Of a stretch of 64,000 bases of DNA, positions 1,804 through 43,094 are shown piece by piece. Source of the DNA: Robertmurraya dakarensis (GTDB taxonomy: Bacteria > Bacillota > Bacilli > Bacillales > Cytobacillaceae); assembly GCF_900156875.1 (NCBI RefSeq), contig NZ_LT707409.1, forward strand, positions 2,873,279 through 2,937,278. The letters are read 5' to 3'. How positions within the stretch are numbered: the stretch's first letter is position 1; every line of letters begins with the position of its first letter. Under the pieces are notes generated by a model. The model had not been told where the DNA came from. It made no database searches and was given only the letters and a program-made list of their open reading frames with translations. The position numbers were made by a program, and so were the translations under genes.

Positions 1804-2534
1804 ATCCGCTATTAGAGTTAAAGAACGTTGGTTACACAGCACAAGGCAGGGATATCTTAAACATTCCAAATCTATTAATAAAACAAAAAGAAATCATCGG
1901 CATTATGGGGCCTAATGGAGCTGGCAAAAGCACTTTATTAAAAGTACTATCCTTACTTGATGCCCCAAGTACCGGCAGCATCTATTTTAAAGAAAAGGAA
2001 ATTGATGTTCTCCACTTATCGATTGACATGCGCAGAAAGTTTGCGATTGCACTGCAGCAATCACTGCTCCTAAACACAACGGTCTTTCAAAATGTGGCCA
2101 TCGGTCTAAAACTTCGCAAACTGCCAAAAAAGAGGATAAAGGAAGAAGTACAGCATTGGTTAGAGATGTTTAAAATAGAGCATTTAGCCAAAAAGCATGC
2201 CTATTATCTATCTGGCGGCGAAGCGCAGCGTGTGAATCTTGCAAGAGCGATGGCCCTCAAGCCTGAGGTGCTGTTTCTCGATGAACCTTTTTCTGCTTTA
2301 GACTTTCCGACAAAAGTCCAGCTTTTGAAAGAATTAAAGGAAATACTTCACAGCACTGAAACAACGACGGTGTTCGTCAGCCATGATCTTTTGGAAATTA
2401 AATTTTTGACAGATAGGCTGGCTATTCTCATGAATGGTGAAGTAAGACAGATTGGGAACACATCCGAGGTGATCGAGTTTCCTAATGAAACAACCGCAGG
2501 ATTTATTGGGGAATGGAATTCATTTATTAAGTGA
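1800..2534 (+). CDS. tupC: Tungstate ABC transporter ATP-binding protein TupC
   Basis: 244 residues with a complete ABC ATPase motif set: Walker A GPNGAGKST (about 37-45), Q-loop, signature LSGGEAQR (about 139), Walker B VLFLDEPF and the switch His in FVSHD. It energises tungstate uptake through TupB. The start overlaps the tupB stop by 4 bp. The likely substrate is taken from the operon partner TupA, since the ATPase alone would not distinguish molybdate, phosphate or tungstate. A palindromic repeat element follows 15 bp downstream and may serve as the transcript end. Confidence 0.85.
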   Translation: MNPLLELKNVGYTAQGRDILNIPNLLIKQKEIIGIMGPNGAGKSTLLKVLSLLDAPSTGSIYFKEKEIDVLHLSIDMRRKFAIALQQSLLLNTTVFQNVAIGLKLRKLPKKRIKEEVQHWLEMFKIEHLAKKHAYYLSGGEAQRVNLARAMALKPEVLFLDEPFSALDFPTKVQLLKELKEILHSTETTTVFVSHDLLEIKFLTDRLAILMNGEVRQIGNTSEVIEFPNETTAGFIGEWNSFIK

Positions 2535-2547
2535 AACTTCAATACTC

Positions 2548-2632
2548 CTAACGAAACGATGATCCCTGTAGCGTGCCTTTATTTTGAAAAAATAACAGCA
2601 CGTGGAAGGGACCATCGTGGAGTGGGTATTCT
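2548..2632. repeat. Imperfect palindromic intergenic repeat, copy A
   Basis: One of three related elements in the window (others at 49831-49914 and 60174-60256, both in the opposite orientation). The element is an imperfect inverted repeat of about 80 bp: an arm reading ACGATG..CCCTGTA.CGTGCCTTTATTTT faces a mirrored arm AATAACAGCACGTGGAAGGG.CCATCGT. The strand could fold into one long hairpin. It sits just after tupC. The family is not one I can name. Confidence 0.75.
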
Positions 2633-2654
2633 AAGAACATTAACTAAATAAAAA

Positions 2655-2697
2655 AGAAAGTAGCATATGGGGCTTCATCCCCTGCATGCTACTTACA
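2655..2697 (-). terminator. Rho-independent terminator of the cotW-cotX unit
   Basis: AGTAGCAT pairs with ATGCTACT around an inner GGGG/CCCC stem. On the minus strand the hairpin is followed by a T-rich tract (TTTCTTTTTT). It lies about 65 bp beyond the cotX stop. Confidence 0.65.
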
Positions 2698-2762
2698 TAT
2701 ATATATTTAGGAGGTTGGGTTGGATAATGATAATTAGATGAGGCGTACTTACAAACCTTTAA

Positions 2763-3281
2763 TTAAAAGACATCAATTTGAACGAGTAAAGCAAGTAACA
2801 ATTGAAGCATTAACTGAAGTGATACAGCGATATCAGTATCAGTCATTTGAATATCAACATCACGGCTGTTTTCAATATAGACGCTTTGTCTATTAACTTG
2901 TTCAATTCTTGAGAATTGTAACAGGTCTTGAGTTACTTTTTCTGCTTGGTTGCTGTCAGCGATAGTTAAGTTAACAACTAGAGCAATCGCTACTTGCAGT
3001 GCAGCTTGCAATGAAACAGCCACTTGAGTTTCTGTTGAAGTTACATTGATATCACAGCTGTCTTTAACAACAATTACTTCTCTTGAACGCTGCTCAATAC
3101 CGCTAAATTGATCTGCTTCTTGAGATACTTGTGCATCATCATTTGAAAATGGGAATTGACTAGATGGGTCTAGTGCATTCCATCTTCTTCCTCCTCTATC
3201 ATTGCAGCGTGGGCAAACAGACTCTCTCTCGGATGCGCCACCAACACGGTTACGACTTTCATGACAATTTCCGCTTAACAT
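2763..3281 (-). CDS. cotX: Spore coat protein X (CotX family)
   Basis: 172 residues. A Cys-containing N-terminus (CPRC at about 22-25) is followed by WNALDPS and two tandem CotX-type units: SREVIVVKDSCDINVTSTETQVAVSLQ and RQSVYIENSRDVDIQMTDTDIAVSLQ. Each unit is followed by a hydrophobic run (ALQVAIALVVNL; LMLQLLLALLVQI). CotX proteins form the insoluble outer spore coat or crust. It is co-oriented 16 bp downstream of a CotW-like gene, as in B. subtilis cotVWXYZ. Expression is probably late mother-cell. Confident in the family, less so in one-to-one orthology with cotX versus cotV. Confidence 0.8.
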   Translation of the reverse strand: MLSGNCHESRNRVGGASERESVCPRCNDRGGRRWNALDPSSQFPFSNDDAQVSQEADQFSGIEQRSREVIVVKDSCDINVTSTETQVAVSLQAALQVAIALVVNLTIADSNQAEKVTQDLLQFSRIEQVNRQSVYIENSRDVDIQMTDTDIAVSLQLMLQLLLALLVQIDVF

Positions 3282-3297
3282 AATTTACATCTCTCCT

Positions 3298-3597
3298 TTA
3301 TTTTTCTTGATTTTTCTTTTTTTGCATCAAATCTCTTAAGGTTGTTCGGGTTCGACCGGCTTGATTATCAGCCGCTTCTGTGTCTTCTGTTTCCTGTTTC
3401 GTTTGTTTTACGAAGGAATTCACTTGGTCTTGTAAATCGTTGAAAATTTTCCTAAGCTGTTCCTTTTCCTCATCAGAAAGACTTCTGAGCTTTGAATTGT
3501 TATTGTCCTTCGTATTTTTGTTTAATACATCCTTTACATGAAGGCCGACCAATGACCGCGATAACTCAGTTAGTTTGTTGTTTAGATCTCCCAACAT
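3298..3597 (-). CDS. CotW-like spore coat protein
   Basis: 99 residues, highly charged and soluble, with a central helix LSDEEKEQLRKIFNDLQDQV and a basic tail ending in Lys/Gln residues. Composition, size and position directly upstream of cotX match B. subtilis CotW as I remember it, including the SDEEKE core. The gene likely encodes an outer-coat or crust component. A possible sigma-K -10 element (CATATCTAA, one mismatch) lies about 45 bp upstream but its -35 spacing is poor. Orthology is inferred mainly from context. Confidence 0.6.
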   Translation of the reverse strand: MLGDLNNKLTELSRSLVGLHVKDVLNKNTKDNNNSKLRSLSDEEKEQLRKIFNDLQDQVNSFVKQTKQETEDTEAADNQAGRTRTTLRDLMQKKKNQEK

Positions 3598-40217: not shown

Positions 40218-40979
40218 TTAACCAATTTGTATCTCAACTTTACATCCTTTATGCTGTAACAACTTAAATTTTAAGTCATCATTCAATCCAGCTAGCCGCA
40301 ATTCAAATCGCTCATCGCAAAACGGAATGGCATGGTCACAAAAACATGTGAATTTTTGATGACAACAGCGGTTATTTCGCATATGGTAAAAGTGTTCGGA
40401 GTAATCATATCTTCGGTCATGTTCGTCATGACAATGAGGACAGTGGTCGTGCCTTTCTCGGTGCTCGTGATGGCAATGAGGACAACGGTCGTGTTTTTCC
40501 CGGTGCTCGTGATGGCATTGAGGACAATGGTCGTGTCTTAACTCATCAAATTTCTTACGTTTATTAGTATGTTTCACGCCCCTGTGATTTTTGCTATAAC
40601 ATTGACAAGGGGTTTTATTACAGCCTTTACAACTATGATGAAATTCCTTATCCTTTTTCCTTTTTTTCTCTCGACGATCATTAAAATCTGATAAGCGCCC
40701 AATTTGTACACAATGACAATTTCCATGGTGCTTACATTGTAATACTCTTTCTGAAGCCCATTGGCCAGGCCATTTTATATGTGTAATCCTATCTGTTAAA
40801 ACACTTATTATAAGATGATCATCCTGTAATATTTCAACGAAATCAATTCCAACATCAACTATTTTCCCTTTGATAGTTAAAGGATCCTCTTTAATATATT
40901 TAAACCTCATGGTATCTGGACCAGCTTTATTCTGTTCTCTATTTGTTAATAAGTTATTGATATCTTTCCTTAAATACAT
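40218..40979 (-). CDS. His/Cys-repeat metal-binding spore protein
   Basis: 253 residues; GGAGGGGA 6 bp before the ATG. The N-terminal third contains the CotB-like module TIKGKIVDVGIDFVEILQDDHLIISVL (about 34-60). The C-terminal half has three tandem 14-residue repeats of the form HD[HR]CPxCHxEHxxx (about 152-193), flanked by more CxC and HC pairs, giving dozens of potential metal ligands. Behind a perfect sigma-K promoter and next to the Mn oxidase cluster, it is probably a coat protein binding Mn, Cu or Zn. I do not know a named homologue. Confidence 0.65.
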   Translation of the reverse strand: MYLRKDINNLLTNREQNKAGPDTMRFKYIKEDPLTIKGKIVDVGIDFVEILQDDHLIISVLTDRITHIKWPGQWASERVLQCKHHGNCHCVQIGRLSDFNDRREKKRKKDKEFHHSCKGCNKTPCQCYSKNHRGVKHTNKRKKFDELRHDHCPQCHHEHREKHDRCPHCHHEHRERHDHCPHCHDEHDRRYDYSEHFYHMRNNRCCHQKFTCFCDHAIPFCDERFELRLAGLNDDLKFKLLQHKGCKVEIQIG

Positions 40980-41825: not shown

Positions 41826-41854
41826 TTGAAAAATACGAACATTTGTTCTAAAAT
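41826..41854 (+). promoter_or_regulatory. Promoter with LexA (SOS) box in the spacer
   Basis: TTGAAA (41826-41831), 17-bp spacer, TAAAAT (41849-41854). The LexA-type box CGAACATTTGTTCT (41836-41849) fills the spacer; its GAAC-N4-GTTC core is intact and differs from the Bacillus consensus at two outer/inner positions. LexA binding would block the homing endonuclease promoter until DNA damage. The rest of the 342-bp gap 41565-41906 holds only the upstream terminator. Confidence 0.75.
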
Positions 41855-41906
41855 AAAAATATCTAATCAATGCATTTATAAAAAGTATTCGGGAGAGGAA
41901 ATTATT

Positions 41907-42314
41907 ATGAAAAACTGGGAAGCTGCCTATTTAGCTGGAATAATTGATGGAGAAGGAACAGTTACTTTGACCAGAATGCATGAAAACGAATACCGACGGC
42001 CATGTATTACGATAGCTTCAACCGATAAAGAACTTTTAGACTATATTCAAACACTAACAGGTGGCACAATTACAAAAAAGAAAAACTATAAACCAGATAT
42101 ACATAAAAATTCCTACTCACTAATGATCAAAAAAAAAGATACAGTTTTTTATCTGTTAAGAAAAATTTCTAACTTTTTACGAATTGAGAAAAAGAAACAG
42201 CGAGCCTTATTGATACTTGAGAATTATGAAAAAGTAACCCCGAGAAATGGAAAATACAGTCATGACTTATTGCAGAAAAAATTGGCCTTCGAAGAACAAT
42301 TTTTTCAAATATAA
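41907..42314 (+). CDS. Free-standing LAGLIDADG homing endonuclease
   Basis: 135 residues from ATG 41907 (GGGAGAGG upstream). One LAGLIDADG motif, AAYLAGIIDGEGTV (about 6-19) with both acidic residues, then the STDKELLDYIQTLTGG segment and a basic C-terminal half. One motif and small size imply a homodimer that cuts a near-palindromic site. It is AT-rich and Lys-rich compared with neighbours, a sign of acquisition. It ends 33 bp from the tmRNA 3' end, on the opposite strand, and outside the intron. The intronless tmRNA gene is the obvious candidate target. Confidence 0.85.
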   Translation: MKNWEAAYLAGIIDGEGTVTLTRMHENEYRRPCITIASTDKELLDYIQTLTGGTITKKKNYKPDIHKNSYSLMIKKKDTVFYLLRKISNFLRIEKKKQRALLILENYEKVTPRNGKYSHDLLQKKLAFEEQFFQI

Positions 42315-42324
42315 AATAAACAAA

Positions 42325-42353
42325 TAAAAAACCACCAAATATGTATTTGGTGG
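42325..42353 (-). terminator. Terminator of tmRNA, overlapping its 3' CCA
   Basis: CCACCAAATA pairs with TATTTGGTGG, followed by TTTTTTATTTG on the minus strand. The left arm includes the CCA end of mature tmRNA. Confidence 0.8.
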
Positions 42354-42364
42354 AGACGGTGGGA

Positions 42365-42642
42365 CGTGATCTTCCATGCTTTCGTCATGGCACTGACTAT
42401 ATCTTGAACCTGTTTTTTTACAGGTCCTTCGGCGTGTTATGCAAAATGTAAATTTACTTGATTCTCAAGTATATTTTGCATCCTAGTACTACCATCATGA
42501 TGGCAGCCTATAAGTCGATACACGGCTGTTGGATTACTCCACATACCGCTCGGTATTGCCTTATCACATTTAAGTGACTTAGGTTTCACCGATAAAGCCG
42601 AATTTTCACTTATGTGTTACCACACAAGGCGACTATTTACTA
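42365..42642 (-). other. Group I intron in the tmRNA T-loop
   Basis: 278 nt, no ORF. The 5' exon ends in T and the intron ends in G, the group I rule. P1 forms between exon CGAT and the internal guide GTCG (42630-42633) with the U-G wobble at the splice site. P2 has a GTAA tetraloop; P4 pairs TCGGT with ACCGA; P5 and P6 (second GTAA loop) follow; P7 pairs GACT in ATCGACTTAT with AGTC in the S-type element AAGATATAGTC; P9 is CCATG/CATGG. Subgroup not assigned. Confidence 0.9.
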
Positions 42643-42861
42643 ATCGAACCCACGTCCAGAAATATCGCCACTTAAGCTTCTACGAGTGTAGTCGACATAT
42701 TCTTGTTTCGCTAGTCCTTTTGCCTGCCGACAGGCGGCCGGCTAGCTAGTCTGGTTGTTCTCTTCCTTCTTCCTCAGACGGTGGAATCCGGCGTAGCCCA
42801 CTAAGAGTGAGTCCGCTACCCTACCACATGGGCGATGGAGGGGCGAACCGCTAAAGTGCTA

Positions 42862-42897
42862 TTAGGCAGCTAAAGCGAAGTTGTTTTGTTGTTTGCC
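42862..42897 (-). other. tmRNA tag-peptide reading frame
   Basis: Codons GGC to GCC then TAA encode GKQQNNFALAA; with the alanine carried by tmRNA the tag is AGKQQNNFALAA, ending in the usual ALAA degron for ClpXP-type proteases. Confidence 0.88.
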
Positions 42898-43094
42898 AGT
42901 TATAGGCTTTGACGTTTTAACGAGGCCGATCCCCTCGACTCGCAACCTAAGCTCGAACTACCCCTGTCGAATCCGTAGCGTCCCCATGTTAAAATGTACG
43001 CTGTGGTATTTCACACAATCGTCCATGGTATGAAACGGAATGCTCGAAATAGATGAGCTATAAGTTATGTGTGTTAGTCGTGCTGACAAATATT

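Follow-up and report, generated by a model that had tools for sequence, protein, structure and literature searches.

A bacterial chromosome carries a 278-nucleotide group I intron in the T-loop of its tmRNA gene (ssrA), and a separate gene for a LAGLIDADG homing endonuclease lies just past the ssrA 3′ end on the opposite strand. We consider it likely that the intron is moved by this detached endonuclease, a process called collaborative homing, which would here operate in a cellular ssrA gene and under the control of LexA. The window (the whole stretch of DNA that was analyzed, 64 kb in length) comes from a genome of 5.48 Mb, which consists of 11 contigs. Comparisons cover other genomes of the same family (Cytobacillaceae), samples of its class and phylum, and viral contigs.

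The interrupted ssrA gene

The whole interrupted gene spans positions 42985 to 42348 on the minus strand. Its 5′ exon (42643-42985, minus strand) was identified by Rfam model RF00023 and by ARAGORN on the joined exons, and ends ...GTGGGTTCGAT in the T-loop. The 3′ exon TCCCACCGTCTCCACCA (42348-42364, minus strand) is assigned from the sequence and from the joined-exon test. A tag reading frame coding for GKQQNNFALAA, followed by stop codons, is located at 42865-42897 (minus strand), as called by ARAGORN on the joined exons and read from the sequence.

The Rfam tmRNA model matches the unspliced gene with 156.7 bits (E = 4.3e-63), and ARAGORN calls no tmRNA in the unspliced window. When the 278-nt insert is removed and the exons are joined, ARAGORN calls a standard 360-nt tmRNA with the tag given above, and both the tRNA-like and the mRNA-like domains are complete. 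An earlier note on this DNA had predicted a tmRNA of exactly this length upon removal of nucleotides 42365-42642, and the joined-exon call bears this out. The acceptor stem, read from GGGGACG...CGTCTCCACCA, includes a G3·U70 pair, which is the identity rule for alanine.

The surroundings are those of a usual ssrA locus, since the ORF immediately upstream (43611-43144, minus strand) is, judging by its family, presumably smpB. An ORF that we take to encode an RNase R-like protein is also located upstream. With smpB as the query, a match was found at the loci of 66 of 80 relatives. A terminator scan places a hairpin at 42332-42353 (minus strand), which is a consensus match only. The mature 3′ CCACCA of ssrA sits within the stem of this predicted terminator, and thus termination and 3′ processing would overlap. 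In nine intron-bearing genomes of the family (for example, G148 and G158), the encoded 3′ end is CCACTA rather than CCACCA.

Several other database calls in this region were set aside. A permuted form of tmRNA is suggested by a weak match to the Rfam tmRNA_permuted model (29.6 bits against a gathering score of 47) and by a second, ‘permuted’ ARAGORN call on the joined sequence. Both are artefacts, and the standard form explains the gene. Weak Rfam matches to VrrA, SR6_antitoxin and MIR5286 are attributed to chance. Elsewhere in the window, a 253-amino acid ORF (40218-40979, minus strand) is rich in histidine and cysteine with a repeated CPHCHHEH-like unit, and has no Pfam match.

A group I intron in the T-loop

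The insert (42365-42642, minus strand) is a compact, structurally intact group I intron with stems P1 to P9 plus P7.1 and P7.2. It lies between bases 6 and 7 of the T-loop TTCGATT, which corresponds to position 7 of PMC11915505. The earlier note had recognized a group I intron that splits ssrA in the T-loop and had listed its hallmarks. Rfam matches, the ARAGORN call on joined exons and covariation over 74 introns all agree with that assignment, and the following features are present in the sequence: a U at position −1, a terminal G, a U·G pair in P1, the P3 and P7 pairings, the GUAA loop of P6a, and AAGATATAGTC.

In the Rfam check proposed in the earlier note, the tmRNA match is strong and the intron model (Intron_gpI, RF00028) matches with an E value of 1e-9, but its score of 45.8 bits is under the gathering score of 50, which is a curators’ cut-off and not a biological feature. 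The group I assignment also draws on a test of structure. For this purpose, stems P1, P2, P3, P4, P5, P6, P7, P7.1, P7.2, P8 and P9 were written down from the window sequence and compared with an alignment of 74 of the 167 extracted introns, including that of the window, from which near-identical and over-long introns had been removed.

Base pairing is maintained in 92.2% of the 5,548 paired cells of this alignment, versus 86.6% in shuffles and 33-39% when one arm of the stems is slid. Compensatory changes on both sides occur in 46 of the 76 pairs, versus a mean of 26.9 in shuffles, and none of 500 shuffles gave a value as high. Covarying pairs are found in P3 (3 of 6), P4 (1 of 5), P6 (2 of 3) and P8 (5 of 7). 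The P7 stem is uninformative because all four of its pairs are invariant, and the inner portion of P7.2 lacks conservation, with 48% of its cells paired. The splice-site U·G pair is kept in all 74 introns; the U at −1 was part of the pattern used to extract introns, and the pairing G was not. The terminal G of the relatives provides no independent test, since the search pattern required it.

No ORF of at least 80 amino acids is present within the intron, according to the ORF list for the window. We considered the possibility that family introns carry an endonuclease gene internally and rejected it, as the 102 family introns measured are 268-308 nt long and are too short for the gene. Just one of the 167 extracted introns exceeds this range; it measures 430 nt, comes from Bacillus sp. 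Marseille-Q3570 (L245), and was left out of the alignment. Its P5a loop is enlarged by about 150 bases, a place that differs from the published endonuclease sites in P7.1 and P9.

Distribution of the intron and second tmRNA genes

The intron is present in 103 of the 192 family genomes whose tmRNA gene could be read. The exon-intron pattern had matched 104 of 193 genomes, of which two (G067 and G125) were dropped because the match is not to a tmRNA, and one (G006), whose exon differs, was added. Another genome (G183) was left out for want of a tmRNA match, and G146, which was missed by Rfam and found by the pattern, was kept. A second pattern match in G130 (C14) was disregarded. PMC11915505 reports 883 unique intron-form tmRNA sequences, at all positions, in 21 phyla. 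Together with the count for the family, this means that the intron is not rare, and the statement in the earlier note that such introns are known from a few bacteria is outdated. The intron alone is of an already known kind.

A second group I intron is present elsewhere in the source genome (G000:C11:2197737-2198039; L001 1501-1803), where it scores 65.4 bits. The two ORFs that flank it look to us like the halves of a ribonucleotide reductase gene.

The source genome also has a second tmRNA gene (G000:C11:884293-884657; L003 1501-1865; L011 9294-9658). This gene is uninterrupted, 365 nt long, and codes for the tag GKQQNSFALAA. It sits in a cluster of the order tRNA-Ser/tmRNA/tRNA-Thr/tRNA-Leu, and its T-arm and tag are intact. 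The earlier note had argued that ribosome rescue in this cell depends on splicing, which is too strong a claim given this second, uninterrupted gene.

More than one tmRNA match was found in 22 of 193 family genomes. In 20 of these, the extra copies (25 in total) are located in tRNA clusters. In G003 and G007, the ordinary type of gene is itself present in several copies. The T-loops of the 25 cluster copies are TTCAACT (20), TTCGACT (3), TTCGAAT (1, in the genome studied here) and TTCAAGT (1); none has TTCGATT, the T-loop of the intron-bearing genes. The cluster copies also differ in their acceptor stem, which in most cases reads GGGAATG or GGGGATG, and in their tag. A link between the second copy and the intron was considered and not adopted, since the presence of the intron in 17 of the 20 cluster-copy genomes is unconvincing against its base rate in the largest genus.

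The detached endonuclease gene

A gene on the plus strand (41907-42314) is predicted to encode a LAGLIDADG homing endonuclease of 135 amino acids, based on a match to Pfam PF14528, an alignment of 36 relatives, and a predicted structure. The gene is convergent with ssrA, with 33 nt separating the 3′ ends of the two, and lies outside the segment (42348-42985) with which the earlier note was concerned. A sequence resembling a ribosome-binding site, GGGAGAGG (41891-41898, plus strand), can be read in front of the ATG at 41907.

The match to PF14528 scores 33.7 bits against a cut-off of 22.5 (scanned from 41826), and PF00961 falls just under its own cut-off (22.8 vs 23.1). The motif IDGEG is invariant in all 36 relatives. 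The predicted structure has a pLDDT of 92.8 and a pTM of 0.84, and its nearest solved folds include I-CreI, I-MsoI, I-Vdi141I and I-CvuI, with a Foldseek E value of 7.7e-07 to I-CreI and 15-21% identity to the 50 fold matches listed. In a profile search, the best match in the PDB is I-MsoI (6.5e-16). Since each chain has one motif, a homodimer is expected, as is established for I-CreI. By analogy, the 135-amino acid protein would act as an I-CreI-like homodimer.

The likeness to I-CreI, I-MsoI and I-CvuI thus comprises the fold (from the predicted model), the sequence profile (for I-MsoI) and the single motif. These three enzymes home in rRNA genes and are encoded by introns, whereas the gene described here lies outside its intron.

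No plasmid matches to the endonuclease were found, and the phage matches consist of three records from two phages with 32-36% identity. Viral contigs encode 259 relatives. Among the best 80, which were fetched, the top match (L315) has 40% identity over its whole length, the next has 45% over 75 residues, and the rest have at most 43%. A phage or plasmid origin was therefore not adopted. When close kin of L315 were searched for, L315 itself was the sole match. Inspection for ssrA covered the first four of the 80.

A candidate SOS box

A promoter-like sequence, TTGAAA-17-TAAAAT, is located at 41826-41854 on the plus strand. It is a consensus match only, from a promoter scan that gave 7 matches in the region versus a mean of 4.9 (sd 2.4) in shuffles. 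Its spacer holds an SOS box, CGAACATTTGTTC. The box, GAACATTTGTTC (41837-41848), ends 58 nt before the endonuclease start codon and was recognized by its match to the Bacillus subtilis consensus, given as CGAACN4GTTCG in Table 1 of PMC9578287. It is the only exact GAACN4GTTC in the 64-kb window.

The 120 nt upstream of the endonuclease gene were examined in 80 relatives, which are not independent, so that kinship affects these counts: 15 of 80 have the exact core and 48 of 80 have it with at most one mismatch. The background, provided by 3,869 other tiles from the same loci, is 6 exact cores (0.16%) and 175 with at most one mismatch (4.5%). The box is absent or poor (at least two mismatches) in the other 32 of the 80 relatives. 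In the source genome, boxes with one mismatch also precede lexA (three) and recA (one). The endonuclease gene is probably repressed by LexA and induced in the SOS response, as far as its upstream sequence can tell.

Association of endonuclease and intron across genomes

The endonuclease is strongly associated with the intron. Of the 192 family genomes whose tmRNA gene is readable, 103 carry the intron, and an endonuclease match (E ≤ 1e-5) is found in 64. Both are present in 62 genomes, the match only in 2, the intron only in 41, and neither in 87 (Fisher p = 5.7e-20). The two match-only genomes (G022 and G141) both have endonuclease fragments with an uninterrupted ssrA.

Intact endonuclease genes, defined as start-to-stop ORFs that cover query residues from 8 or lower to 125 or higher, are found in 42 genomes of 13 genera, and all 42 carry the intron (Fisher p = 3.2e-14). 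No intact gene occurs without an intron in the family genomes. One of the 42 (G190) is doubtful because its tblastn match holds a stop codon. A looser rule, based on the open length from the match start, gives 45 of 45 with the intron, though this rule fails G089 and G111 and passes some truncated genes. When labels were permuted within genera, which removes only part of the kinship among these related genomes, the observed overlap was reached in 0 of 20,000 permutations, both for the count of matches and for the count of intact genes.

Among the 103 intron-bearing genomes, 41 have no endonuclease match and 20 more have only a partial, broken or diverged copy. Thus, many of the introns in the family may no longer move. 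Remnants in two genomes (G103 and G161) lie below the threshold of E ≤ 1e-5 that gave the 64 matches.

The position of the gene is also consistent. An endonuclease match (E ≤ 0.01) is present in the fetched stretch at 58 of 102 intron loci, and all 58 are on the strand opposite to ssrA. The match starts mostly 37-255 nt past the ssrA 3′ end, with one at 609 nt. At 49 loci on genome contigs, the distance from the ssrA end to the endonuclease stop codon is 27-602 nt, most commonly 41-49. In four genomes, the match is farther from the intron-bearing ssrA on the same contig, at a distance of about 6 kb (G063), 25 kb (G074), 54 kb (G085) and 16 kb (G135). Islands appear to have inserted at the ssrA 3′ end in these genomes, between ssrA and the endonuclease gene.

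The contigs of named genomes encode endonuclease relatives at 165 loci, of which the best 80 were fetched. In 71 of these 80, ssrA is visible, and the two genes are convergent in all 71; an intron junction is found in 70 and is masked in one. At the remaining nine, the fetched DNA does not include a complete ssrA.

Bacilli and Clostridia both have examples of this layout. Records with the titles Clostridium, Anaerovorax and Clostridiaceae show it, with an endonuclease identity of 49-52% (L304, L307, L308, L310, L312 and L313), and so do three further genomes (G802, G915 and G592; L395-L397). In two genomes outside the family (G754 and G704; L398 and L400), an endonuclease remnant lies beside an uninterrupted ssrA, and in another (G228; L399) a remnant lies near an intron-bearing ssrA. 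The gene is sparse outside the family. A sample of 398 genomes from the class contains 4 with a match (E ≤ 1e-15), and a sample of 398 from the phylum contains 7 (E ≤ 1e-8), with the source genome counted in both. In another locus (L314, 3446-3454), a sequence like the ssrA end, CCTCCACCA, occurs 37 nt past the endonuclease gene, with no recognizable T-arm.

The viral relative mentioned above is of a different kind. On L315 (IMGVR_UViG_3300017971_006494, region 2474-3430), a metagenomic contig labelled viral, the endonuclease relative (40% identity) directly follows an uninterrupted ssrA. Copies of the ssrA 3′ end, 19 bp each and 541 bp apart, flank it on both sides, and its stop codon adjoins the second copy. 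In this single case, the endonuclease gene looks like it was inserted at the ssrA end without an intron.

Shared history, selection and empty sites

Tree distances were compared for 56 loci, out of 64 entries kept. The endonuclease and intron distances are correlated (rho = 0.72), and a partial correlation of 0.55 (p = 0.002) persists when smpB is accounted for. The correlation between intron and smpB drops to 0.19 once the endonuclease is accounted for. The endonuclease and intron trees share 15 of 53 splits, and any two of the trees share 14-18 of 53. Linkage alone could give part of the correlation between endonuclease and intron.

The median dN/dS among 56 intact endonuclease genes is 0.16, a value that rests on the 70 of 1,540 pairs with dS below 1.5 because the other 1,470 are saturated at synonymous sites; the median for smpB is 0.02. 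These ratios indicate that the endonuclease is under purifying selection that is weaker than that on a housekeeping gene.

Three of the best-matching pairs of loci (L228/L258, L045/L283 and L052/L276) combine an intronless with an intron-bearing ssrA, with 91-98% identity in the blocks adjoining the gene. In all three, the intron and the endonuclease-bearing DNA are two separate inserts, and the intronless partner has neither. In L228/L258 and L052/L276 the second insert has a clear far boundary, and L045/L283 matches for only 70 nt there.

A proposed mechanism and its alternatives

Our proposal is as follows. The intron would leave the pre-tmRNA through two transesterifications initiated by guanosine, which would restore the T-arm. 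The endonuclease would serve as the detached vehicle of the intron: as a homodimer, it might cut the nearly palindromic T-arm of uninterrupted ssrA alleles, and repair of the cut from the donor would copy the intron and the neighboring endonuclease gene together. The host’s own ssrA would be spared because the intron splits the site. LexA probably represses the gene, so that the enzyme would be made when DNA damage or incoming DNA induces RecA and recombination. Once the allele is fixed, selection for the endonuclease would end and the gene would decay, leaving introns that are free of an endonuclease.

We infer that the target of the enzyme is the intron insertion site. The strongest indirect sign is that no intact endonuclease accompanies an uninterrupted canonical ssrA in the family. 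The apparent insertion at the ssrA 3′ end in L315, a single case, supports this target in a different way. The near-palindrome is a property of every tRNA-like T-arm. In intronless canonical ssrA genes, the base at −1 is C in 22 and T in 12 (34 readable of 37 fetched, from 89 intronless genomes), which we take as weak support.

The same observations have to be weighed under other readings. The endonuclease might be an independent selfish gene that homes just downstream of ssrA, with the intron as an immobile relic inherited vertically, the two being found together through shared ancestry and parallel loss. We consider this unlikely, but deserving of attention, since the gene does lie outside the intron, its relative in L315 (40% identity) stands beside an uninterrupted ssrA between 19-bp copies of the ssrA 3′ end, and the trees of intron and endonuclease each agree partly with that of smpB. 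Against this reading, 0 of the 42 intact endonuclease genes in the family are without an intron, and the overlap was reached 0 times in 20,000 within-genus permutations. Moreover, the correlation between intron and smpB is only 0.19 with the endonuclease accounted for, and an enzyme that cuts the T-loop would spare its host only if the site there were altered or split by the intron.

The restriction of intact copies to genomes with the intron (42 of 42) would also be expected of a maturase, that is, a LAGLIDADG protein that binds the intron RNA, aids splicing, and no longer cuts DNA. Some LAGLIDADG proteins do act in this way. Nevertheless, we find this role improbable here, as 41 of the 103 intron genomes lack a match and another 20 have no more than a partial, broken or diverged copy, and introns taken from both groups have the same fold. 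In addition, IDGEG is invariant in 36 of 36 relatives, and a splicing factor repressed by LexA would leave the normally growing cell short of tmRNA. Very little credence can be given to the idea that the interrupted ssrA is a dead copy and the intron a scar, with rescue carried out by the second, uninterrupted tmRNA. That gene does have an intact T-arm and tag, but tRNA-cluster tmRNAs are found in just 20 of 193 family genomes and the intron in 103. Both the exons and the core of the intron are conserved, joining the exons yields a complete tmRNA fold, and the interrupted gene is the one that adjoins smpB. We therefore favor homing by the detached endonuclease.

Relation to known systems and significance

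The published position-7 tmRNA introns (PMC11915505) are alike in site, in the U before the 5′ splice site, in the G at the end, and in length, which is similar. The endonuclease genes of tmRNA introns described there are inside the intron (in P7.1 or after P9), whereas the gene described here is outside, on the other strand, and past the 3′ exon. According to the same source, 36 of the 883 intron-form tmRNA genes (4%) hold an endonuclease gene, versus 54% of archaeal rRNA introns. PMC13153191 concerns a 23S rRNA intron.

Collaborative homing is, to our knowledge, known only from phages. The examples described are the cyanophage psbA intron and the ICP1 terL arrangement (PMC3984707, PMC10448857). 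The likeness is that a group I intron without an ORF is accompanied by an endonuclease gene that stands on its own next to the host gene. The system described here differs in its location on a cellular chromosome, its tmRNA host gene, its LAGLIDADG enzyme, its SOS-box promoter, and its occurrence in two classes. According to the review, the target of the enzyme is the intron insertion site in two phages, whereas here we infer it. The literature matches listed, which include few subscription papers, seem to hold no description of a tmRNA intron combined with a detached convergent LAGLIDADG gene and an SOS box in two classes.

A more general proposal is that SOS-induced collaborative homing in bacterial chromosomes is the usual engine of tmRNA introns that seemingly have no endonuclease, and that second tmRNA genes must escape through altered T-loops. 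On this broader claim our opinion is evenly balanced.

The detached endonuclease could explain why an endonuclease gene is found within only 4% of tmRNA introns. A gene located past the 3′ exon would escape a count of endonucleases within introns, and 62 of the 103 intron-bearing genomes of the family have such a gene or its remnant. The enzyme would be a natural nuclease that is expected to cut a conserved tRNA-like T-arm. If it does cut the T-loop site, then there is a testable engine behind the spread of introns into an RNA gene of importance, and collaborative homing extends from phages to cells. If LexA control is also true, homing would be tied to the SOS response, and cutting would be timed to periods of recombination.
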